Below, piece after piece: positions 3,796-39,347 of a stretch of 64,000 bases of DNA. A model generated the notes under the pieces. The model saw only the letters and a program-made list of their open reading frames with translations. It was not told the DNA's origin and ran no database searches. Origin of the DNA: Chloroflexota bacterium (lineage in GTDB: Bacteria > Chloroflexota > Dehalococcoidia > GIF9 > UBA5629); contig VGOP01000001.1 in NCBI GenBank assembly GCA_016875875.1, positions 1-64,000 of the forward strand, in the 5' to 3' direction. The translations under genes and the position numbers were made by a program. Numbering within the stretch: the stretch's first letter is position 1; every line of letters starts with the position of its first letter.

Positions 3796-5052
3796 TCAAC
3801 GTAGAGCTGGGGTCTGACGGCAGGCTGCGGCTGCCTGGGACTGTGTGGCATAACAGGCGCCTCCAGTCTGGGTACACTGGGCCTGAGTGGTCTGGTAGAC
3901 CTGGCTTTTCAGGCAGCACCAGCACGTCGGCGGTTGGCAGCGTTCCGTCACCTGGGCCTGGTTGGTTGACCAGTAGGAGCCTCCTACCTGGGTGCACTGA
4001 GCCTGGGTGGCCGTGTAGACCTGGCCGTCTCTGCAGCAGTATCCCATCGGCTGGCAGCGTTCCATCGTCTGGGCCCGGTTGGTGGACCAGTTGGAGCCTC
4101 CCATCTGGACACACTGGGCTTGGGTGGATGGGTAGTATATCTGCCCATTCAGGCAGCAGTATCCTTTCGGCTGGCAGAATTCTATCGCCTCGGCCTGGAA
4201 GGTGGACCAGAAACCTCCTATCTGGGTGCATTCACGTTTGGTGGTCTGGCTGACTTTTTCATTTGCGCAGCACCAGCCTTCCGGCTCGCTGTAGCAATAC
4301 CAGTTTTGCTGGTCGTCAGGGGAGTAGTAGCAGCGCGCATCAGAGCATTTCTGGGTGAACCCGAGGTTTGCTGCCTCCCCAGGTTTCAGACAGTAGGCGC
4401 AGTTGCTGGGGCATTTGAAAAAATCAGGTCTATTACGAGTAGTAATCGATGGAGGTGAAGTACCTGGCGTGGAATACTGGTCCAACCATTTTGGCGTACG
4501 CTGCTCGGTCTGGTTATCCGTCGGCCCTGATTGTCCAGCCGGTATAAGATTGGCGGCAAGAGATAGCGTTAGCTCTGCCGTATCGCTGCCGTATTCGTTG
4601 CTGGCCATGAGGATGGTGATAAACTTACCGCTGTCGTCCGTCGTTATTGCAGAGGCCGGCAGCCCGTCGGCAGTCCCGTTAAGGGCGGCGCCGGAAGGGT
4701 TACTGATGTTTTTAATGTTAGTGCCCGCCTCATTTATCACTACATTCGTGGCGCGCCTCACCTTGAAGGTATACACGGCGGCGGAAGTGGGGGTATCCAG
4801 CTCCATTGGGTCAGCTTTGAACACCTGGATGACCGGTCCATTCCCGTCTATAGCGGTTGAAGTGTAATCGGCTTCGTTCTGTTGTAAGGGCTCAGCTTTG
4901 CACACCTGGACGTCCGGTAGCATCCTGCCTGTGTAGGACCGATTAGTGTACACGATTGCCCCGGCAGTTGTGAGGCCGATCAGCACAAGGCAGAGACACA
5001 ATCCGAGAATGCTATTCATGCTGCGGACCCATCTAAAACCTGATAATTTCAT
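3796..5052 (-). CDS. exported protein with four C-terminal Cys-rich repeats
   Basis: 418 aa. An uncleaved or cleaved N-terminal hydrophobic segment (about 12-35) marks export. Residues about 60-170 look like a beta-sandwich domain, followed by a linker and a Cys-rich patch at about 212-255. Residues 259-418 are four tandem repeats of 38-42 residues with the pattern [GC]-[WY]-C-C, T-x-x-[QE]-C, G-G-x-x-[WY]-x-T and a final C-[QR], four or more Cys per unit. The even Cys number suggests disulfide-bonded modules outside the cell. The start at 5052 has a good Shine-Dalgarno (GGGAGG) nine bases upstream. Not recognised as a named family. The next gene is the Ig-like surface protein. Confidence 0.75.
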   Translation of the reverse strand: MKLSGFRWVRSMNSILGLCLCLVLIGLTTAGAIVYTNRSYTGRMLPDVQVCKAEPLQQNEADYTSTAIDGNGPVIQVFKADPMELDTPTSAAVYTFKVRRATNVVINEAGTNIKNISNPSGAALNGTADGLPASAITTDDSGKFITILMASNEYGSDTAELTLSLAANLIPAGQSGPTDNQTEQRTPKWLDQYSTPGTSPPSITTRNRPDFFKCPSNCAYCLKPGEAANLGFTQKCSDARCYYSPDDQQNWYCYSEPEGWCCANEKVSQTTKRECTQIGGFWSTFQAEAIEFCQPKGYCCLNGQIYYPSTQAQCVQMGGSNWSTNRAQTMERCQPMGYCCRDGQVYTATQAQCTQVGGSYWSTNQAQVTERCQPPTCWCCLKSQVYQTTQAQCTQTGGACYATQSQAAAACRQTPALR

Positions 5053-7017: not shown

Positions 7018-8223
7018 TTATTCGTGACGCAAACATTCTATCGGGTCTAGCCTGGCAGCCCGGAAGGCGGGGTAGGTCCCAGATATCAACCCTGTCCCAA
7101 TTGACACGGTAAGGGCGAGAATAACAACGCCGAGTGAAATTTGAGCCTGAAAAGTTGAGTTCCCCATAGTAATATTGCCCATTAATAATGACCCTCCTAC
7201 CGCTATGAGCAAGCCAATCAAACCGCCGGTGAAGCTAAGGGCTGCTGCTTCAATAAGGAACTGAGTTAAAATATCACGTCGCTTGGCGCCGATAGCTTTG
7301 CGTATGCCGATTTCTCGTGTCCGTTCCGATACGGAAACCAGCATGATGTTCATAATGCCGATGCTGCCCACAATGAGCGAGATAGCGCCTACGCTGCTCA
7401 AGAAAATCGAGAAGGCAGCTAATGACTGCTGCATGCTGCTCAGGACTTCCCGCATGTCCCTGATGGTGAAGTCATCTGCGCCCCCTGGCCCGATATAATG
7501 CCGTGCCCTTATTATCGAGGTTATTTCGGCAATAGCAGAATCTACTTGGTCCGGGCTGACTGCCTTTACGGCAATCTGCTGGATATTGTTGCCACCGACT
7601 ATTTTTGATTGCATTGTTGTAAGCGGCATCAATATATAGTCATCTCCTGCAAAGCCCCCCATCTTTTGAATGGTGCCGATGACCTGGAATTTAATGCCGT
7701 CAACGCGCAGGCTCTTGCCCAGTGGGGATTCGCTGCCGAATAAGTCCAAAGCCGTCTGGTAGCCAACTATTACCACGTTCTGCCTTGCTGTGATATCCTG
7801 CTCGGAGATAAATCTACCTTTATCTACAGTATAAGCCCTTATTTGTGCTATCGTGGGCGTAACACCGGTGGCCTGTATATTCACGTTGTTGTTACTGTAA
7901 GACACATTTACACCTTTGCTAAGCGTAGGCGACACTACAGCTATTGATGGTGCCATCTTCTGGTCTGCCAGTGCTTGGGCATCTTCAAGTGTGAGGTCAC
8001 GCACAGTTTTTGTTGTCTTGTCTGCCGAGCTGGATATATAAAGCGCGCTGGCCCCCATATTCTCAAAAGTTGTTTTCATACTGGCCTGAAACCCTTGGCC
8101 TAGGGCAACCAGCAGGACCACAGCGCAGACGCCAATCACAACACCAAGCATCGTCAGCGAGGACCGCAGTTTATTGGAAAATATAGATCGCCAGGCTGTT
8201 CTGGTGCTCTCCCAGATGTTCAT
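7018..8223 (-). CDS. MacB/LolC-type ABC transporter permease
   Basis: 401 aa. One N-terminal membrane helix (about 18-40) is followed by a large extracytoplasmic MacB-PCD domain (about 45-240) and a three-helix FtsX domain (about 275-395) with the typical 'RTREIGIRKAIGAKRRDILTQFL' region. This is the type VII ABC family, which moves or extracts substrates at the membrane surface by mechanotransmission rather than through a channel. It overlaps the upstream ATPase gene by four bases (ATGA), so the two should be translated together. With the adaptor genes upstream it forms an exporter. Substrate not known; antibiotics, peptides or lipoproteins are typical for the family. Confidence 0.9.
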   Translation of the reverse strand: MNIWESTRTAWRSIFSNKLRSSLTMLGVVIGVCAVVLLVALGQGFQASMKTTFENMGASALYISSSADKTTKTVRDLTLEDAQALADQKMAPSIAVVSPTLSKGVNVSYSNNNVNIQATGVTPTIAQIRAYTVDKGRFISEQDITARQNVVIVGYQTALDLFGSESPLGKSLRVDGIKFQVIGTIQKMGGFAGDDYILMPLTTMQSKIVGGNNIQQIAVKAVSPDQVDSAIAEITSIIRARHYIGPGGADDFTIRDMREVLSSMQQSLAAFSIFLSSVGAISLIVGSIGIMNIMLVSVSERTREIGIRKAIGAKRRDILTQFLIEAAALSFTGGLIGLLIAVGGSLLMGNITMGNSTFQAQISLGVVILALTVSIGTGLISGTYPAFRAARLDPIECLRHE

Positions 8224-8888
8224 CGTTTCTTTTCCTCGATGACCTTACCATCCCTGAGATAGATAGTTCTATGAGTATATGCTGCTATATCTTCTTCGTG
8301 GGTAACTACGATCACAGTAATACCTTTCTTACACTGTTCAAGTAAAAGAGACATGATTGTGCGGCTCGAGGCGGTATCAAGGTTACCGGTGGGTTCATCA
8401 GCAAGTATTATCACAGGGTTGTTTACTAGGGCACGGGCGATTGCTACCCTTTGTTGCTCGCCGCCAGAAAGTTCGGTCGGGTGGTGGTGTGCCCTTTTGC
8501 CTATGCCGACCGATTCCAGGGCATCGAGGGCACGCTGGTGCCTGTGATTTTGACCCGAATATATCAGCGGCAATTCTACATTATCTACTGCGGTCAATTT
8601 AGGTAAAAGGTTGTAAGACTGGAAAACGAAACCTAATTTGTTATTTCTTATTACCGCCAGGTTATCGTCCTTAAGGCTGGAGACATCCTGTCCCTCCAGG
8701 CGATAGCTTCCAATAGTCGGCCTATCTAAGCAGCCGAGTATGTTCATCATGGTAGATTTGCCAGAACCGGATGCCCCCATGATGGAAACCATCTCACCTT
8801 TCTGGCAGTGAAAAGAGATATCGTCTAAGGCAGTGACCTTCACCTCACCCATGTCGTATATCTTAGTTGCATTTTCTAATTCAATCAT
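8220..8888 (-). CDS. MacB/LolD-type ABC transporter ATP-binding protein
   Basis: 222 aa, usual length. Walker A GASGSGKST is at 38-46, the signature LSGGEQQR near 139, Walker B with ADEPTGNLD near 163 and the H-loop in VVTHE near 196. The protein energises the permease encoded immediately downstream. It is preceded by 49 bases after the second adaptor gene and is probably in the same operon as both adaptors. Confidence 0.93.
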   Translation of the reverse strand: MIELENATKIYDMGEVKVTALDDISFHCQKGEMVSIMGASGSGKSTMMNILGCLDRPTIGSYRLEGQDVSSLKDDNLAVIRNNKLGFVFQSYNLLPKLTAVDNVELPLIYSGQNHRHQRALDALESVGIGKRAHHHPTELSGGEQQRVAIARALVNNPVIILADEPTGNLDTASSRTIMSLLLEQCKKGITVIVVTHEEDIAAYTHRTIYLRDGKVIEEKKR

Positions 8889-8937: not shown

Positions 8938-10635
8938 TTAGCGTATAGGGACGCGCATCATACCTGGCGTTCCCCGACGCTGTGTATTAGTACCTGTGCT
9001 GGGCGTCAGATTTGATACAGTAACTTTCTCCCCTTCTTTTAATCCCTCTAACACCTCGGCGTATTGGAAGTTTTGTCTGCCCAGAGTGATCCGCCGTAAC
9101 TCGGACTGGCCTGTGGCCTCGTCTATCACCGCCACCATGGGTCCCGAAGGTGTATTGACAATCACTGATACGGGCACCAGCAATGTGTTCTTGGCGCTGT
9201 AGATACTGATATCGGCAGTAGCGCTTAAGCCACCCCTGAGCTCGATATCAGTCGGGTCCAGCTCGATGGTGACATCAAATTTAATTACATTGCCCGACTG
9301 TGTGCCAAAGGGTGAAATGAATTTCACTGTTCCTGTGAACACCTTATTTGGTACAGCGTCTATGGTAATCGTGGCCTTTTGTCCACGTTTGACTTTCATA
9401 ATATCGATTTCATCGACAAGCCCCTGGAACTCTATAGATTTAGTATCTACGAGCTTGACAGCTGTCCTGGAGGAATAATCCTGGGCAGACAGGACGTAGG
9501 ACTTTTTAAGGTCCACGCTGACCACAGTGCCGTCGGAAGGGGCTATGATGGCAGTCTTCATGATATCCTGCTTGGCCTCATATAAAGATATTTCTGAGCT
9601 TTGCAGGCTGAGGTTGTATTGCTGCAACTTCTGCCAGTTGACGTCTTTTATGATTACAAAGAGTGACGTTTGATTCTCCAAGATGTCGCGTCCTACCAGC
9701 AGGTTAAGCTTGGCGATGTACAACTTCTTTGCAGCTTCAACCGGCAGGGCGTCGCTCTGTGTCAGGTAGTCCTCTAATTCCTGCAAAGCGCGCATAGACG
9801 ATTGCAGGAAATCGACGCTGGTAGCGGTATCGGGGTACTCGAACAAATTACTGTCCTTGAGATATATTGTGCTTTTAGCCAGCTGGACAACCGTGAGCAT
9901 TTCCTGTTGCACCTTGTCGAATTCAGGTGTAAGTGTGGCATAGTCCCCGATTTTCATCAATTGGGCAATGTTTAGCAATTTCTGACGGTACTTCTGCAGG
10001 TAGTCGACGACCATTTTGTCATTCGGCGACTTGCTTTGGGAGCTGCCCGCGGTAAGGTCTGGATAGTAAGTTGAATTTGTCTTGGCCCCAGCCAATACGG
10101 CGGCATCGGGTCTGGACTTAATCAGGTCTTCGCATACTTCAATATCAAAATATGTCATGATGAGCTTATAGCCGGCGTCCTTGTAGTTCCCCTGTTCAAA
10201 ATAATTAATAGCCGCAGCTATATCCTTTTGTGCTTCATCAACAAGACGGGATACGCTCAAATCCAAGTAATTATAGGGAAGATGGTCAGCTCCGCATTCA
10301 AATTCGATGTCATTTTTTGTAGCCTGTATGCTAAACAGGGCTGTTCTAATGGCGTTTTTCTGTGATGAATTATCAAGCATAGCCAGGAGGGCACCCTGCT
10401 TGACCGTGTCTCCTTCTTCCACCAGTATCTCATCGACCTGCCCATTTGTGCCGAACTTTAGGTCGAACTGGTTGGGCATGATAAGGGAACCATCGGCAGA
10501 TACCACGATATCGAGGTCCCCCCTTTCCACTTGGAAAGTTTGCCCAAGAGGAACCACAGTTTTGCTGCAGCCACTGAGCAATATCGAAAGTAAACTTATA
10601 TTTACTAAAAGTATGGTTATTATTCTTGTTTTCAT
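8938..10635 (-). CDS. HlyD/MacA-like efflux adaptor lipoprotein (second of two)
   Basis: 565 aa. The N-terminus has a lipoprotein signal with lipobox LLSGC (Cys about 23). Residues about 35-95 and 355-430 form the split biotinyl-lipoyl-like and beta-barrel parts of an adaptor ('VKQGALLAMLDN', 'IIAPSDGTVVSVD'), and about 430-560 form the membrane-proximal domain. Between them is a long mostly helical insert of about 250 residues, much larger than in MacA. It starts five bases after the stop of a clearly related adaptor. In a bacterium without a recognised TolC system here, the adaptor may gather substrate at the outer face for the MacB-like permease. Confidence 0.85.
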   Translation of the reverse strand: MKTRIITILLVNISLLSILLSGCSKTVVPLGQTFQVERGDLDIVVSADGSLIMPNQFDLKFGTNGQVDEILVEEGDTVKQGALLAMLDNSSQKNAIRTALFSIQATKNDIEFECGADHLPYNYLDLSVSRLVDEAQKDIAAAINYFEQGNYKDAGYKLIMTYFDIEVCEDLIKSRPDAAVLAGAKTNSTYYPDLTAGSSQSKSPNDKMVVDYLQKYRQKLLNIAQLMKIGDYATLTPEFDKVQQEMLTVVQLAKSTIYLKDSNLFEYPDTATSVDFLQSSMRALQELEDYLTQSDALPVEAAKKLYIAKLNLLVGRDILENQTSLFVIIKDVNWQKLQQYNLSLQSSEISLYEAKQDIMKTAIIAPSDGTVVSVDLKKSYVLSAQDYSSRTAVKLVDTKSIEFQGLVDEIDIMKVKRGQKATITIDAVPNKVFTGTVKFISPFGTQSGNVIKFDVTIELDPTDIELRGGLSATADISIYSAKNTLLVPVSVIVNTPSGPMVAVIDEATGQSELRRITLGRQNFQYAEVLEGLKEGEKVTVSNLTPSTGTNTQRRGTPGMMRVPIR

Positions 10636-10640
10636 TTTAT

Positions 10641-12416
10641 CTATCTAGGTGGTGGTCCCTGGGATCGCCGCGGAAAACCTGTTGTTATGGGTGCCCCGGT
10701 AACCTTTTCTTGAACTACGACTTCATCGCCTTCATTCAGCCCGGTCAATATCTCGGCAAATTGATAGCTCTGGCTACCCAGAGTGACCTTTCTTTTCTCG
10801 ACCTGGCCTGTGGCGCTGTTTATGAAATCGACGAAGGAGCCGGCAGATGTGGTGGTGATAGCCGATACCGGCAGTAGTAGTACATTTTCTATGTTCTTTA
10901 CGATTATATCGGCTGTGGCGGTAAGGCTCCCCTTGAGTTCGACATCGGTAGGATCAAGCAGGATGGTCACGGCGAATTTGACAACACTGCCCGTGTCCGT
11001 GCTGGCGTAAGGTGAGATGAAGGATACTGTGCCTGGGAATGTTCTGTCTGACACAGCGTCCACGGAAATCGTAGCTTTCTGGCCGGTTTCTATTTTCAAG
11101 ATATCGATTTCATCGACAAGCCCCTGGAATTTGATTGCCGTGGTATCAACAAGCTGGATGGTACCCTTGGATGAATAATCCTGGGCGGAAAGGACATCGT
11201 TCTTTTTGACATCCACACTTACCACCGTGCCGTCAAAAGGTGCCATTATCACCGTCTTGAGGAAGTCTTCCTCGCTATTCACCAGTGAAACAAGGTCTTT
11301 TTGTAGGTCGAGCTTGTATCCATGCTCCTTTTGTAGGGAGAGGCCGTGCTGGAACACTAAGTCATTGCTTCCCAGAATAGCGTTGCAGAGCTTCATGTAG
11401 TGCTGCGCTATACGCAGATTGTCATGTAGTTCAGATGAGTTAAGGTCGCCCCTTTCTATACCTTTCAGCGCCGTATCTAAATTCTCTTCAGCAGCGCCGT
11501 AAAAATACAAGCTTATTGCCTCGCCGTAAATGGTCGTATCGATATGCGTTTTTATCATGTTGATGTTATTTTTTACTGTTTTGCCTATGTCGTCAACCCG
11601 GCTTAAGAGGACCTTGAAAAGCGTGCCGGCTTCGTCGGTTTTGCCCTGCCCGATTAACTCGCGCAGCTTATCGATGTCGGCCTGTCCCTGCTTGATTAAA
11701 TCAACCGCCTGGCGCAGCTCAATGATGTAAGACACAGCAAATGATTGCCCCTGATATATCTGGAAATATGTTATGCCAGCCTCATCACTGGGGACGAATG
11801 GCGCCATGTTGCCCAGGCCGGACTTCGGGTTGTTTATGGTGTCCTCAAGTATTTTCACGCAGGGCTCTAGGTCAGATAAAGCTACATACAATTCAGACGC
11901 GGCTTCACTGTATTTGCCGGCTTGGAATAGTTCACGCGCTTTAAAAATCTCGTCCTGCGCCCAGATGAGGGATGACAGAGCAGTGGCGTTGGGATAATAA
12001 AATGGATAGCCAACACCTGAATTATCGTTAGGATCATTAGCCGGAAACTGGGGCAGCAGTGGCACGGTTTCGTAGAGATAACTCAGTGTTTGCTGTACGG
12101 TGTTGTTGGCTGATCTTACATCCAGCCTCTGTGCCGTGTCATCCAGTGTGGCTAATATTGTCCCGGCTCTGACGAAATCCCCCTCTTCTACGTATACATC
12201 TTTAACGTCGCCCGGTGCGCCGAAAGTCAGATCAAATGCCTGCGGCATTACCAGGCTGCCGTCCACTGGCACAGTCACTGCAAGGTTGCCGCGCTGTACG
12301 GTAATGATTCGCCCTTTTGGTTCCTGAGAATCTGGCTTTGAGGAACAGCCTATCCCCGAAACAATCAAGGCGCATGTGAAGAGAACGATTAGCAATTTAG
12401 TAGATATTTTGCTCAT
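10641..12416 (-). CDS. HlyD/MacA-like efflux adaptor lipoprotein (first of two)
   Basis: 591 aa from the ATG at 12416, chosen because the sequence then opens with a lipoprotein signal (MSKISTKLLIVLF, lipobox VSGIGC, Cys near 24). The longer frame would need a TTG at 12464 and adds an unlikely polar leader. Domain order matches the next gene: lipoyl half, long helical insert of about 290 residues, second lipoyl half ('IMAPFDGTVVSVDVKKNDVL'), beta-barrel and membrane-proximal domain. The two adaptors share the phrases 'VDEIDI', 'GQKATI' and 'LSAQDYSS' and are tandem duplicates that diverged mainly in the insert. A direct-repeat operator lies 75 bases upstream. Confidence 0.85.
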   Translation of the reverse strand: MSKISTKLLIVLFTCALIVSGIGCSSKPDSQEPKGRIITVQRGNLAVTVPVDGSLVMPQAFDLTFGAPGDVKDVYVEEGDFVRAGTILATLDDTAQRLDVRSANNTVQQTLSYLYETVPLLPQFPANDPNDNSGVGYPFYYPNATALSSLIWAQDEIFKARELFQAGKYSEAASELYVALSDLEPCVKILEDTINNPKSGLGNMAPFVPSDEAGITYFQIYQGQSFAVSYIIELRQAVDLIKQGQADIDKLRELIGQGKTDEAGTLFKVLLSRVDDIGKTVKNNINMIKTHIDTTIYGEAISLYFYGAAEENLDTALKGIERGDLNSSELHDNLRIAQHYMKLCNAILGSNDLVFQHGLSLQKEHGYKLDLQKDLVSLVNSEEDFLKTVIMAPFDGTVVSVDVKKNDVLSAQDYSSKGTIQLVDTTAIKFQGLVDEIDILKIETGQKATISVDAVSDRTFPGTVSFISPYASTDTGSVVKFAVTILLDPTDVELKGSLTATADIIVKNIENVLLLPVSAITTTSAGSFVDFINSATGQVEKRKVTLGSQSYQFAEILTGLNEGDEVVVQEKVTGAPITTGFPRRSQGPPPR

Positions 12417-12490: not shown

Positions 12491-12508
12491 TGTTAAGATT
12501 TTGTTTAG
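12491..12508 (-). promoter_or_regulatory. putative response-regulator operator upstream of the adaptor/ABC operon
   Basis: On the plus strand TGTTAAG, four bases, TGTTTAG: an 11-base-period direct repeat like those bound by PhoP/OmpR-type regulators. The same layout occurs at 14716-14733 and 15400-15417. Confidence 0.55.
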
Positions 12509-12574: not shown

Positions 12575-14014
12575 TTACTTTGATACCGGAATGGTAAAAC
12601 TAAAACAGCTCCCCTTTCCTAGCTCGCTTTGTACATTAATTTTACCGTTATGCGCCTCGACGAGATATTTGGCAATAGCAAGCCCCAGACCCGTACCGCC
12701 GGTGGCTCGGGCTCGAGATTTATCCACCCTATAGAAGCGCTCAAAAACATTCGGCAGGTCCTCAGCAGGGATACCCTCACCAGTATCTTCTACACTTATC
12801 TCCAGCCAGTTATCAAGCTGCCTGGCGGCTATAGTTATGGTACCGCCTTGTGGTGTGTGAGTTATGGCATTATCGATGAGGTTGAGCAAGACTTGGCTAA
12901 TCCGTCGGGATTCAATGCTCACCAGTGGCAGCTTTTTGGGCAGATTAGAGGATAACGCTATTCCCTTTGCTGTTGCTTGGCTTTGTTTCACAGCCACCGT
13001 TTGCTTCAATAACTTGATAATATTTTCCTTCCGACAATGCAGTTTTAGTTCACCTGCCTCAGCCGAGCTCAGCTCCTGGAGATCGTCAACCAGTACTGAT
13101 AGCAGGTCTGCCTCTTCGTTGAGGGAGCGGATGGCATCTGGCTCTGGCTTTATCACACCATCATGCATTGCCTCCAGGTAACCTCTGAGATTGGATAGTG
13201 GAGTCCGCAACTCGTGGGCAATGTCAGCTATCATATTGCGGCGAAGTTGTTCACTTCGTCCCAAATTTTCTGCCATGGTATTGAAGGCTTGTGCCAGTTC
13301 TCCGATTTCACCTTTCTCCTTAGACTGTACCCTCTGAGACAGGTCCCCCTGTCCCAACTGCCTGGCGGCAAGGGTAAGAGCCTTTACCGGTGCTGAAATT
13401 CGACGCGACAGGAAATAAGTTATTAGGAGTGCAACAGCAACCGCCAGTAGTGCACCCCAAAGAAGAAAACGACTTATTGCCTGGGAGAGACTTAGCGTTG
13501 AAGGGAAAACTGCCGATGGTTCGGGGCTGATATAGAAAGTCCCCACGCTGCTTTCTTCCCACGGCGGTGACAATCCCATACCCGGCATGTCAGGATGGTG
13601 CTGCTGTCCAAACCACTCTCCTTGAGCCAACTGCGGTGGCAAGCCCATACCTGGTATGTCAGGATGGTATTGTTGTCCCAATAACTCTCCTTGAGAATCA
13701 GCCACTACTACTCCGCTAGAGTCGGTCAGTATAATCCTTCGTCCATATAGGTTGCCCCACTGCTCCACATAGGGTTGAATTCCCTCCCAGTTTCCATGCT
13801 CGCGGTAATAGCGGTGCAGCTCAAATGCCACTCTTCCAAAGTGTGCTTGCTCGCTTCGTTCACCATACCGGCGGAATTCAACTCCGGTAGTTTGACTGAC
13901 AAATAGGTATATGGCGCCGACTACAACCAGTATGACGAGGGTGAAGGCCGCCAGGAGACGAAATCGCAAACTATGTACCACTTTGAGTCTCCGAAAACCT
14001 GTAGCCAGTTCCAT
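12575..14014 (-). CDS. sensor histidine kinase (BaeS/PhoR-like)
   Basis: 479 aa from ATG 14014; a GTG at 13981 would shorten the overlap with the regulator gene to 11 bases and is also possible. Membrane helices lie at about 20-40 and 182-202 and enclose an extracellular sensor of about 140 residues. HAMP (about 200-255), HisKA with H267 in [12 protein letters not shown], and a full HATPase_c (N box [12 protein letters not shown]1 EDTGEGIP, G2 [10 protein letters not shown]) follow. The sensor contains two copies of a 15-residue unit, GQQ-x-HPD-x-PGMGL, at 113-127 and 136-150. It should phosphorylate the regulator encoded just upstream and control the neighbouring exporter. Confidence 0.93.
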
Positions 14015-14666
14015 AGACTGTCTTTATGTACTTGGGGTGTCTTGGGTCAGGCTCTAGTTTCCGTCGCAAGTTCAGGATATGAACATCGATGGTGCGGTCA
14101 AAGCCCTTATAATCATAGCCCAAAGCTTTTTCAACAAGTTCTGCCCGGCTGAAAACTCTGCCAGGTTCTTTAATGAGAATTCCCAGCAGCTTGAATTCAA
14201 TGGGGGTAAGATTCAAAGGTTTGCCGGCAATGGATGCTTCCTGTTTGAGGAAGTTTAGGACAATTTTGCCGTGCTTAATCTCTACAGGACCACGTTCTCC
14301 CGGCAGGCGTCTGAGCACTGCTCGGACCCTGGCTGCCAGCTCCCTCGGGCTGAAGGGCTTGGTCACATAATCGTCCGCTCCTAAACCCAGACCAGTCAGT
14401 TTGTCCTCGTCCGTAGTTCTGGCGGTGAGCATAATTATTGGCACATCGGACTCATCTCTAAGGGTACGGCAGACCTCAAGCCCATCCATGCCGGGCAGCA
14501 TTAAGTCCAGGACGATAAGATCAGGGCGACTCTCACGAGCCAGGTGCAGGGCTTCAATACCATCGTGAGAGGTCATAACCCTGTAGCCATCCCGGTTAAG
14601 GTAGAGCTTGACCAATTCCACCGTTTTTGAATCGTCATCAACTACAAGGACTTTTTTACCAGCCAT
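13971..14666 (-). CDS. OmpR/PhoP-family response regulator
   Basis: 231 aa. Receiver domain (about 4-115) with acidic pocket VVDDD, phospho-acceptor D54 in [10 protein letters not shown], Thr in MLTART and Lys in VTKPFSP. C-terminal winged-helix DNA-binding domain (about 130-225) with '[21 protein letters not shown]' and 'RRKLEPDP' regions. It overlaps the kinase gene and is the first gene of the pair. The direct repeat TGTTAAG-GAAT-TGTTAAG sits 50 bases upstream of its start, so it probably regulates itself as well as the adaptor operon and the small secreted protein. Confidence 0.95.
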
Positions 14667-14715: not shown

Positions 14716-14733
14716 TGTTAAGGAATTGTTAAG
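14716..14733 (-). promoter_or_regulatory. putative autoregulatory operator of the two-component system
   Basis: Exact direct repeat TGTTAAG-GAAT-TGTTAAG on the plus strand (TTAACA-N5-TTAACA on the sense strand), close to the B. subtilis PhoP-box pattern as I recall it. AT-rich -10-like bases TATAAG/TTATAG follow downstream before the start at 14666. Confidence 0.6.
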
Positions 14734-14846
14734 CCCTGGTTCATTTTTAGCGCTCATCACCGGTTCATTAATAATCAGAGAGGGAGAGAAGTGCTCTCCC
14801 TCTCTTGATGTGGTCAAATGAGTTCTTGTAATCGAAGTTTGGTCAG

Positions 14847-15350
14847 CTATTCAGATGGTGGTGGAACACATGGTCCACCCTTGCCAGGGAAGCCGCCATG
14901 GCCGGGGAAGCCGAATCCAACGGGGACATCGGGTTTCGCCTCCATCCACTTTTTAAGTGCATCAGCCTGTTCCTGGGTGGGGACGCTAGGCCTCGCCTCC
15001 CACCACTCCTGGAGTGCCTTAGCTTGTTCTTGGGTTATTTTACCCTCATTGACTAGATTCTGAAGGCGGTCTTGCATGGCTTCAGCCCCCATCTTTGGGC
15101 GGTTCTGCATGACTTCAGGGCGCATCTCGCTTGTGGCCTGGGCAAAGGCCTCTTTCAGCGCTTCTTGGTCTATGGTGGTGCCTGTGTTCTGTTGGTAGAT
15201 TTCACAGACTCTGTCCAGTAGAGCCCCACATCGGGCCTTAGGTTGATTGTCATCACCGTTGTCGGCAGCAAGTGCTATTCCACCTATGCTCCCGGCCAGT
15301 AATACAGCCGCCAGTACCGTGAAAATAATGAATTTCTTGCTTCGCCACAT
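14847..15350 (-). CDS. small exported protein with DUF2680-like helical repeats
   Basis: 167 aa. A signal peptide covers residues about 1-29 (cleavage near GGIALA-ADN). The mature part is helical and carries two copies of a short unit, 'GKITQEQAKALQEWWEARP' (about 104-122) and 'PTQEQADALKKWMEAKP' (about 125-141), like the DUF2680/YckD proteins. It ends in a Gly/Pro/His-rich tail (FPGHGGFPGKGG). A GGAGG ribosome site precedes the ATG. It is transcribed away from its own operator repeat at 15400-15417 and lies just upstream of the regulator gene, so it probably belongs to the same regulon. Function unknown; a metal- or stress-binding envelope protein is possible. Confidence 0.75.
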   Translation of the reverse strand: MWRSKKFIIFTVLAAVLLAGSIGGIALAADNGDDNQPKARCGALLDRVCEIYQQNTGTTIDQEALKEAFAQATSEMRPEVMQNRPKMGAEAMQDRLQNLVNEGKITQEQAKALQEWWEARPSVPTQEQADALKKWMEAKPDVPVGFGFPGHGGFPGKGGPCVPPPSE

Positions 15351-15399: not shown

Positions 15400-15417
15400 T
15401 GTTAAAATCTTATTAAG
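15400..15417 (-). promoter_or_regulatory. putative response-regulator operator upstream of the small secreted protein
   Basis: TGTTAAA, four bases, TATTAAG on the plus strand: third copy of the 11-base-period repeat, 49 bases before the start at 15350. Confidence 0.5.
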
Positions 15418-15601: not shown

Positions 15602-15666
15602 TTGACAAGTACATTCCGAGCAGTCTATAATATATCAAGATATATCGTGATAATACTGGATATATC
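15602..15666 (+). promoter_or_regulatory. padR promoter with three phased ATATATC repeats
   Basis: TTGACA (15602-15607), an 18-base spacer and TATAAT (15626-15631) form a near-consensus promoter. Overlapping and following the -10 are AATATATC (15629-15636), GATATATC (15639-15646) and GATATATC (15659-15666). Offsets are 10 and 20 bases, that is one and two helical turns. The position covering the -10 and start site fits repression, probably by the PadR protein encoded next. Confidence 0.65.
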
Positions 15667-15689
15667 ATAATTTAAAGGAGGTGATGGAC

Positions 15690-38039: not shown

Positions 38040-39347
38040 TTATAATCTTATCCTTATTGCCTGGGCATGACCCTTGAGTTCTTCAGCCTCAGCTATGGTT
38101 ATGGCTGCTTGCCCCAGTTCTTTCCCGGCAGATTCATCTAAGGCGATAATATTGGTGATCTTAAGGAAATCCTCTACACCGAGCGGGGAGCTGAAATAAG
38201 CACTGCCTCCTGTGGGCAAGACATGGCTAGGTCCGGCGATATAATCACCGAGAGCTACCGGGGAACTACCGCCGATGAAGATACAGCCGGCATTGCGGAT
38301 TTTCTGAATGTAACTGGCAGCGCCGCGTAGCATTAGGGAGACATGCTCCGGAGCATAGAGATTGACTAGTTCAATAGCTTCATCTGGAGTATCAACCAAT
38401 ACTATCATACCTCCGGATCTCAGAGCTTCTGCGGCAATGGTTTGCCGTTCCAATTTTTCCAATTGTTTCTTTATCTCGCTGTTAACAGCCTTAGCTAATT
38501 TGGATGAGGTGGTGATTAAGATTGCCGATGCCTGAGAGTCGTGTTCGGCTTGAGCTATAAGGTCGGCGGCACAAAAAGAGGCATTGGCAGTGTCATCGGC
38601 TGCAATTATTATCTCGCTGGGTCCAGGAAGGCTCTCTATGGCCACTGTCCCATAGACCATTCTCTTGGCTGCAACCACAAAAACGTTGCCTGGGCCACAA
38701 ATCTTATCCACCTTCGGTACCGATTCGGTGCCAAAGGCCAAGGCGGCAATAGCTTGAGCCCCACCTATCTTAAATACGCGATTGACCTTGGCGATGTCAG
38801 CCGCTACCAGGGTCACTGGCGGAATTGTACCATCTTTCCTGGGTGGTGTAACTACAATGAGCTCTTTAACTCCGGCTATCCGGGCTGGAATGGCGGTCAT
38901 CAGTACTGTAGATGGATAAGCAGCGGTGCCACCAGGCACATAAATGCCCACCCTGTTTAATGGGCTGATTTGCCGCCCCACGCCCTGGCTGAGGAAGCTA
39001 GATTCAAGCCTTTGCTTGCACATGGAATGAAACTGTTTTATTCTGTTCGCCGCCAGTTTCAGTGCTGACACTAGCTTCTTGTTCACCTCCTCATAGGCAT
39101 CCGAAATCTCGTTTTTACTTACCTCCAATGAGCTGAGTTCAACTCCATCCAGTTTCTTGGTGTAGCTAAAAAGCGCTTTGTCACCCTTGCCCCGCACCTC
39201 AGCAAGTATGCGTTTTACTATATCCTCGGGCAAGGATTCTTCTCTTCTCGTCCTCGTTTTGGGCTTTGGGGGCAGTGGAAGCCCATAGGAGGGGACAGCT
39301 CTGGTCAATAGAGGCTTTGCCTTTTGAAAACCTTTAACTATTCTCAT
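38040..39347 (-). CDS. hisD: histidinol dehydrogenase
   Basis: 435 aa from ATG 39347, which overlaps the hisG stop by 14 bases; the longer frame starting at 39383 lies in hisG. Signatures: ICGPGNVFVVAAKRMVYG near 235, GPSEIIIAADD, and the zinc/catalytic His of A-P-E-H-V-S-L and GPSHVLPTGG. It catalyses the last two oxidations to histidine. It belongs to the his operon. Confidence 0.96.
   Translation of the reverse strand: MRIVKGFQKAKPLLTRAVPSYGLPLPPKPKTRTRREESLPEDIVKRILAEVRGKGDKALFSYTKKLDGVELSSLEVSKNEISDAYEEVNKKLVSALKLAANRIKQFHSMCKQRLESSFLSQGVGRQISPLNRVGIYVPGGTAAYPSTVLMTAIPARIAGVKELIVVTPPRKDGTIPPVTLVAADIAKVNRVFKIGGAQAIAALAFGTESVPKVDKICGPGNVFVVAAKRMVYGTVAIESLPGPSEIIIAADDTANASFCAADLIAQAEHDSQASAILITTSSKLAKAVNSEIKKQLEKLERQTIAAEALRSGGMIVLVDTPDEAIELVNLYAPEHVSLMLRGAASYIQKIRNAGCIFIGGSSPVALGDYIAGPSHVLPTGGSAYFSSPLGVEDFLKITNIIALDESAGKELGQAAITIAEAEELKGHAQAIRIRL

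Follow-up and report, generated by a model that had tools for sequence, protein, structure and literature searches.

The window analysed here, a 64 000-nucleotide stretch of the genome of a Chloroflexota bacterium, holds an operon in which the genes for two paralogous lipoprotein adaptors, A and B, stand with those for one MacB-type ATPase and permease. The two adaptors share common descent, are found together in relatives and carry homologous inserts; regulator genes and a DNA box lie upstream of them, and no TolC or Omp85 was detectable in the genome (1.97 Mb, 96.75% complete). We see about an even chance that the operon encodes a MacB-type ABC exporter in which two lipid-anchored adaptors likely share one mixed six-membered ring, and that this exporter is under its own two-component control and has its exit at the surface of a single-membrane cell.

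The exporter operon

All four genes of the exporter lie on the minus strand.

7018-8223 (-), permease, MacB/FtsX-like, 401 aa (MacB_PCD E 9e-46, FtsX E 7e-23)
8220-8888 (-), ABC ATPase, 222 aa (ABC_tran E 1e-33; the top NCBIfam match is the ATPase part of MacB, under its cut-off)
8938-10635 (-), adaptor A, lipoprotein of the MacA/HlyD type adjoining the ATPase gene, 565 aa (profile matches; tree clade A)
10641-12416 (-), adaptor B, lipoprotein paralogous to A and first gene of the exporter, 591 aa (BLASTP and profile matches; tree clade B)

The gap between the A and B genes is 5 bp and that between A and the ATPase gene is 49 bp, and the ATPase and permease genes overlap by 4 bp. The start of B was placed at the ATG at 12416; an alternative in-frame TTG 48 bases upstream would give a protein of 607 aa. 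These coordinates and the profile matches agree with the first-pass annotation, which had described two lipoprotein adaptors of 565 and 591 residues in one operon with a single ATPase and permease. Its description of the adaptors as tandem paralogues is borne out by BLASTP (36% identity over 604 columns, E 2e-103) and by a joint clade in the trees discussed below.

With a permease that matches both MacB_PCD and FtsX and a MacB-like ATPase, the transporter is a MacB-type (type VII) ABC exporter. The ATPase and permease (212 and 265 bits) stay under the MacB equivalog cut-off of 966 bits because they are encoded by separate genes. Both adaptors have the split lipoyl domain and β-barrel of the HlyD/MacA type, and both score past the Pfam cut-offs with HlyD_D23 and HlyD_3 and past that of NCBIfam with RND_mfp; their scores against the NCBIfam MacA equivalog are 115 and 77 bits, below its cut-off of 342 bits. 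A PROSITE-type pattern recognizes a lipoprotein-like signal in 16 of the 17 A-clade rows and 15 of the 17 B-clade rows that include the start. Elsewhere in the window, 3796-5052 (-) encodes a 418 aa protein with cysteine-rich repeat units and without a Pfam match.

Co-occurrence of the adaptors in relatives

Relatives were surveyed in 30 genomes of the bacterial family (f1) and in 75 genomic stretches (loci). Wherever a contig is long enough, the genes follow one another as B, A, ATPase, permease. An A gene is present in 23 loci; 20 of these include its start and have B directly upstream without exception, and the other three end inside A at a contig edge. The spacing from B to A ranges from -23 to 56 bp. 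Whether the two adaptors always occur together had been posed as a check by the first-pass annotation, and within the family the answer is in its favour: both types are present in 19 of the 30 genomes, and no genome with a single type was found. This count includes G024, in which a piece of B on a separate contig has its best match in the B type (63% identity, 353 bits; next clade 91); B is cut by contig ends in G023, G043 and G020. The pair is absent from the remaining 11 genomes, many of which are incomplete, one being a 91% complete genome of the same genus.

Further afield, a search of 343 genomes of the class with the B profile gave matches with E of 1e-60 or better in 12, all in family f1, and no genome of this sample outside the family reached that threshold. 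At 1e-30, matches were found in 54 of 301 genomes of the phylum, with at most four candidates scored per genome, which leaves room for tandem adaptors elsewhere.

Descent and single-adaptor sister operons

Trees were built from 88 adaptors and, with 77 rows, from the core columns alone. Support is 100/100 for A, 100/99 for B and 100/100 for A and B together. One gene duplication followed by joint retention explains the pair, and on these sequences the duplication predates the sampled members of the family that carry it.

The other adaptors of the family fall into three further groups, S1, S2 and S3. Those of S1 and S2 are single adaptors, adjoined by an ATPase or permease match in 24 of 26 rows (L022 left out), and the genome of the window has one S1 operon (G000:C7). 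The inserts of the single-adaptor sister operons are similar in size to those of A and B, which rules out the inserts as the cause of pairing and makes large inserts older than, and independent of, the A/B duplication.

Two other arrangements were seen among these loci. The S3 group (for example L131:6053-10642) is a second two-adaptor system: in 12 of 14 loci the large S3 adaptor has a small HlyD-type adaptor of 240 aa behind it. An MFS-type gene on the same strand, belonging to one and the same cluster, comes after it in 11 of the 14; the Pfam assignment was made on L131 only. In L116 (9895-12411), two tandem permease genes stand behind one single-adaptor ATPase operon.

The adaptor inserts

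A and B have the same domain plan of a lipoprotein-like signal, a split lipoyl domain, a β-barrel and a MacA-like C-terminal part. Between the lipoyl halves lie 271 residues in A and 294 in B, compared with about 90 in MacA.

9556-10368 (-), insert of A, residues 90-360, replacing the MacA hairpin (model helices; alignment to MacA)
9856-10278 (-), bundle of four helices predicted in A, residues 120-260 (hits to four-helix bundles in a structure search, Z ~15)
11256-12137 (-), insert of B, residues 94-387, homologous to the A insert (profile alignment; model)
11541-12002 (-), bundle of four helices predicted in B, residues 139-292 (hits to four-helix bundles in a structure search, Z ~15-17)

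The inserts had at first been taken as unrelated-looking. This is ruled out by a profile comparison of residues 100-355 of A with residues 104-382 of B, in which 232 columns align with a probability of 97.6% and E 3e-12. The AlphaFold models of the two chains (mean pLDDT 75.9 and pTM 0.56 for A; 72.0 and 0.38 for B) also have an identical order of helices: a first helix, four bundle helices, two more and a descending helix. MacA is among the best structure matches of both models (Z 16-17 for A and 18.7-20 for B), in which each insert looks like a four-helix bundle atop a shortened hairpin. The low pTM values make the position of this helical crown uncertain; the bundle Z scores of 15-17 are near the level of unrelated helical bundles, so that what we claim for the bundles is an arrangement and not a relative.

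The first-pass annotation had considered that the inserts might match TolC-docking hairpins, and they do so neither by motif nor by predicted fold. The hairpin-tip motif R-x3-L-x6-S (RLS), which the same pattern finds in the MacA segment, occurs between the lipoyl halves in only two of 20 A rows and one of 18 B rows, and never in the same column.

Variable Thr-rich linkers stand at the start of the B insert in L036, L037, L042 and L045, and as a result B measures 581-737 aa in rows with a start codon. Conserved cysteines are found at residues 114 (16 of 18 rows) and 168 (20 of 20) of A and at residues 186 (14 of 18) and 344 (15 of 18) of B, and the S2 and S3 inserts have an adjacent Cys-Cys in place of the A/B cysteine pairs. 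Long inserts may be common in the phylum; in the phylum sample, many Chloroflexota adaptors that match the A profile sit in open frames of 500-930 codons.

Two-component system and DNA box

Upstream of the exporter genes, again on the minus strand, lie the following features.

12492-12507 (-), direct repeat resembling the box TTAAC-N6-TTAAC with one mismatch, upstream of B (motif scan)
12575-14014 (-), histidine kinase, HAMP-HisKA-HATPase, 479 aa (domain matches)
13971-14666 (-), response regulator, OmpR-type, 231 aa (Response_reg and Trans_reg_C)
14717-14743 (-), perfect box TTAAC-N6-TTAAC (14717-14732) and overlapping one-mismatch copy (14728-14743), upstream of the regulator (motif scan)
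14847-15350 (-), small secreted DUF2680 protein, 167 aa (PF10925; homologues in seven loci)
15401-15416 (-), repeat resembling the box with one mismatch, upstream of the DUF2680 gene (motif scan)

This upstream two-component system and its DNA box are newly described here. Same-strand kinase and regulator genes lie at most three genes upstream of the pair in 13 of the 15 loci that extend at least 3.9 kb upstream of B; L078 and L089 lack this arrangement. The TTAAC-N6-TTAAC repeat has an 11-base register, as is usual for OmpR-type regulators. In the 75 loci (1.96 Mb, both strands) the strict box has ten matches, six before the regulator, two before B and two before the DUF2680 gene. Six of the ten come from L081 and L138, which belong to one genus, and in both of these a strict box precedes the DUF2680 gene. 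When each half may end in C or T, the box is found upstream of the regulator in 14 of 15 cases, upstream of B in five of 18 and upstream of single adaptors in none of 24, against a background of 0.005 per 270 bases.

Within the window there is one perfect box, before the regulator, and four one-mismatch boxes, of which three precede B, the regulator and the DUF2680 gene and the fourth lies elsewhere, at 38471; the genome's only occurrence of a stricter form is at 14717. Two-mismatch boxes are not enriched in the window (56 compared with 47 expected), and consensus promoters and terminators are at chance level. The regulator genes and the shared box suggest that the exporter is most likely an inducible envelope module in which a small secreted protein and a sensor pair accompany a pump; the DUF2680 protein likely belongs to this regulon.

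Divergent from the DUF2680 gene is a PadR gene (15681, +). Just before it, at 15602-15680 of the window, a perfect -35/-10 promoter (TTGACA-18-TATAAT) is followed by AT-rich overlapping palindromes.

Cell envelope

The first-pass annotation had noted that no TolC-type gene is near the operon. When the search was widened to the entire 96.75% complete genome, it again gave no match to the TolC family (PF02321), and there were likewise none to Omp85 (PF01103) or to the transpeptidase family (PF00905); the same searches were positive in seven, seven and ten of 14 control genomes, respectively. The sole Mur_ligase_M match in the genome reads by eye as FolC. These searches agree with a report that describes related Dehalococcoidia as having neither peptidoglycan nor an outer membrane, and some of them as having S-layers (PMC10284905). 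The cell probably has a single membrane and no peptidoglycan. With no TolC-family outer-membrane channel found, the system is not classed as a tripartite TolC-linked efflux pump, and the exporter most likely terminates at the cell surface.

Arrangement of A and B on the permease

Residues E231, Y276 and T293 of MacA are described as ring residues (PMC8277102). The glutamate is kept in both A and B, the exceptions (one of 22 and one of 19) being fragments without the site. MAFFT aligns Y276 with F or Y, from which the HMMER alignment is off by one position, and T293 corresponds to S or T in most rows and to N or R in three A rows. Since both chains keep the ring glutamate, A or B could each form a ring alone. 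Of the columns that are fixed in both A and B, seven of 15 in the insert and none of 50 in the core differ between them (Fisher p 9e-6), a pattern that fits two chains using the same ring and permease contacts. The same skew of fixed differences is seen between lineages from separate operons (S1 versus S2, A versus S1 and B versus S1), and it thus reflects a constrained core and a freer crown and is no proof that two chains divide the labour within a ring.

Coevolution of A and B beyond their shared history is unsupported. The A-B distances correlate with r 0.90 (n 15) and those of the adaptors and the permease with 0.69 and 0.67, but the single-adaptor control from the same genomes is nearly as strong (0.88 for A versus S2, n 8; 0.81 for A versus S3, n 9), so the A-B correlation is mostly shared history. 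Opposite charges on A and B were also considered and rejected, the inserts being both acidic and the core charges likewise not opposite. Complementary gate residues were looked for as well. At the gate-loop residue that HMMER aligns to MacA Q209, and that MAFFT shifts by one, Q is present by eye in one or both partners of 16 of 17 related pairs; in the same uncertain alignment the L085 pair has E in A and K in B.

The retained glutamate and the 50 core columns that are fixed alike, with the differences confined to the crown, would also suit separate homomeric rings of A and of B that compete for one permease and differ in substrate or condition. We consider this unlikely: A and B lie a few bases apart in one operon and so are without separate control, both are retained in 20 of 20 loci, and the TriABC precedent is described as needing both adaptors (PMC4338810). 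It also seems improbable that one chain alone, presumably A, whose gene is beside that of the ATPase, forms the ring while B caps or guides it as an outer or regulatory lipoprotein. The B insert is indeed the less constrained (290-433 residues in rows complete there, some with Thr-rich linkers, versus 268-285 in A), and the four-helix part is better conserved in A (mean identity to the window 0.60 versus 0.50), but B retains every core domain along with the ring glutamate, just as A does, and core conservation is equal in the two (0.71 each).

That one chain can suffice for a related pump is indicated by the sister operons of the same family, with their single adaptors and equally large inserts, and the pair might accordingly be redundant, held by drift or dosage and functioning like any single-adaptor MacAB-like pump. 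Single losses would then be expected, yet all 20 loci keep both genes after an old duplication that has left them at 36% identity, and we regard redundancy as very unlikely. A mixed A/B ring, by analogy with TriABC, is the plausible arrangement that we prefer.

In the mechanism proposed for such a mixed ring, the operon would be switched on by its own two-component system. The shared core (lipoyl, β-barrel and membrane-proximal parts) would most likely let A and B neighbour each other in a single ring of six on the permease dimer, in which they may alternate, and the permease would work by the stroke given for MacB in the literature. A shortened hairpin and a helical domain with a four-helix bundle would replace the TolC-docking hairpin. 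With this helical crown in the place of the TolC link, the exit of the channel would lie at the cell surface or a surface layer. The cargo would probably be an amphiphilic compound or a peptide, captured at the membrane's outer face. More tentatively, the full picture may be a hetero-hexameric A/B ring on a MacB-type pump that bears six helical crowns and passes cargo to or through a surface layer, in a cell without outer membrane or peptidoglycan, with a regulator that also controls the secreted DUF2680 partner.

Comparison with known systems

Among systems that need two adaptors, the closest likeness is to TriABC-OpmH of Pseudomonas aeruginosa, in which one pump is served by two paralogous adaptors, TriA and TriB, that are also 36% identical; both are reported to be required and are thought to form a trimer of dimers or a hetero-hexamer (PMC4338810). 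TriABC-OpmH, however, is an RND pump with an outer-membrane channel, whereas the present system is an ABC pump for which no such channel was found and in which the genes of the two adaptors co-occur. MacAB-TolC shares the MacB-type ATPase and permease and the MacA order of domains in the adaptor core. It has one adaptor, an RLS docking hairpin and TolC, in contrast to the two adaptors and helical crown described here in a genome where no TolC family member was found, and, unlike here, its ATPase and permease are not separate genes.

Spr0693-0694-0695 of Streptococcus pneumoniae and YknWXYZ of Bacillus are MacAB-like systems that, as here, operate without an outer membrane, and their adaptor is described as hexameric (PMC5768738, PMC8277102); they differ in having a single adaptor with a plain hairpin and in belonging to thick-walled cells. 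In DSY0927 of Desulfitobacterium, two adaptor units are described as working together, but as fused in one chain (PMC4446572). VarABCDEF was considered as a two-adaptor precedent and set aside, as it is described with one adaptor (PMC5595328). In the titles and abstract openings covered by a literature search, no paper was recognized that has two adaptors on a MacB-type ABC pump.

The A/B exporter would be a natural ABC counterpart of TriABC. Adaptors are usually explained as bridges to TolC, and strictly paired adaptors, retained over a long time, in a genome where genes for TolC, Omp85 and peptidoglycan synthesis were not found pose the question of which function an adaptor ring serves where it has nothing to connect to. 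For the contribution of the second adaptor, the single-adaptor sister operons of the same family would provide a built-in control.
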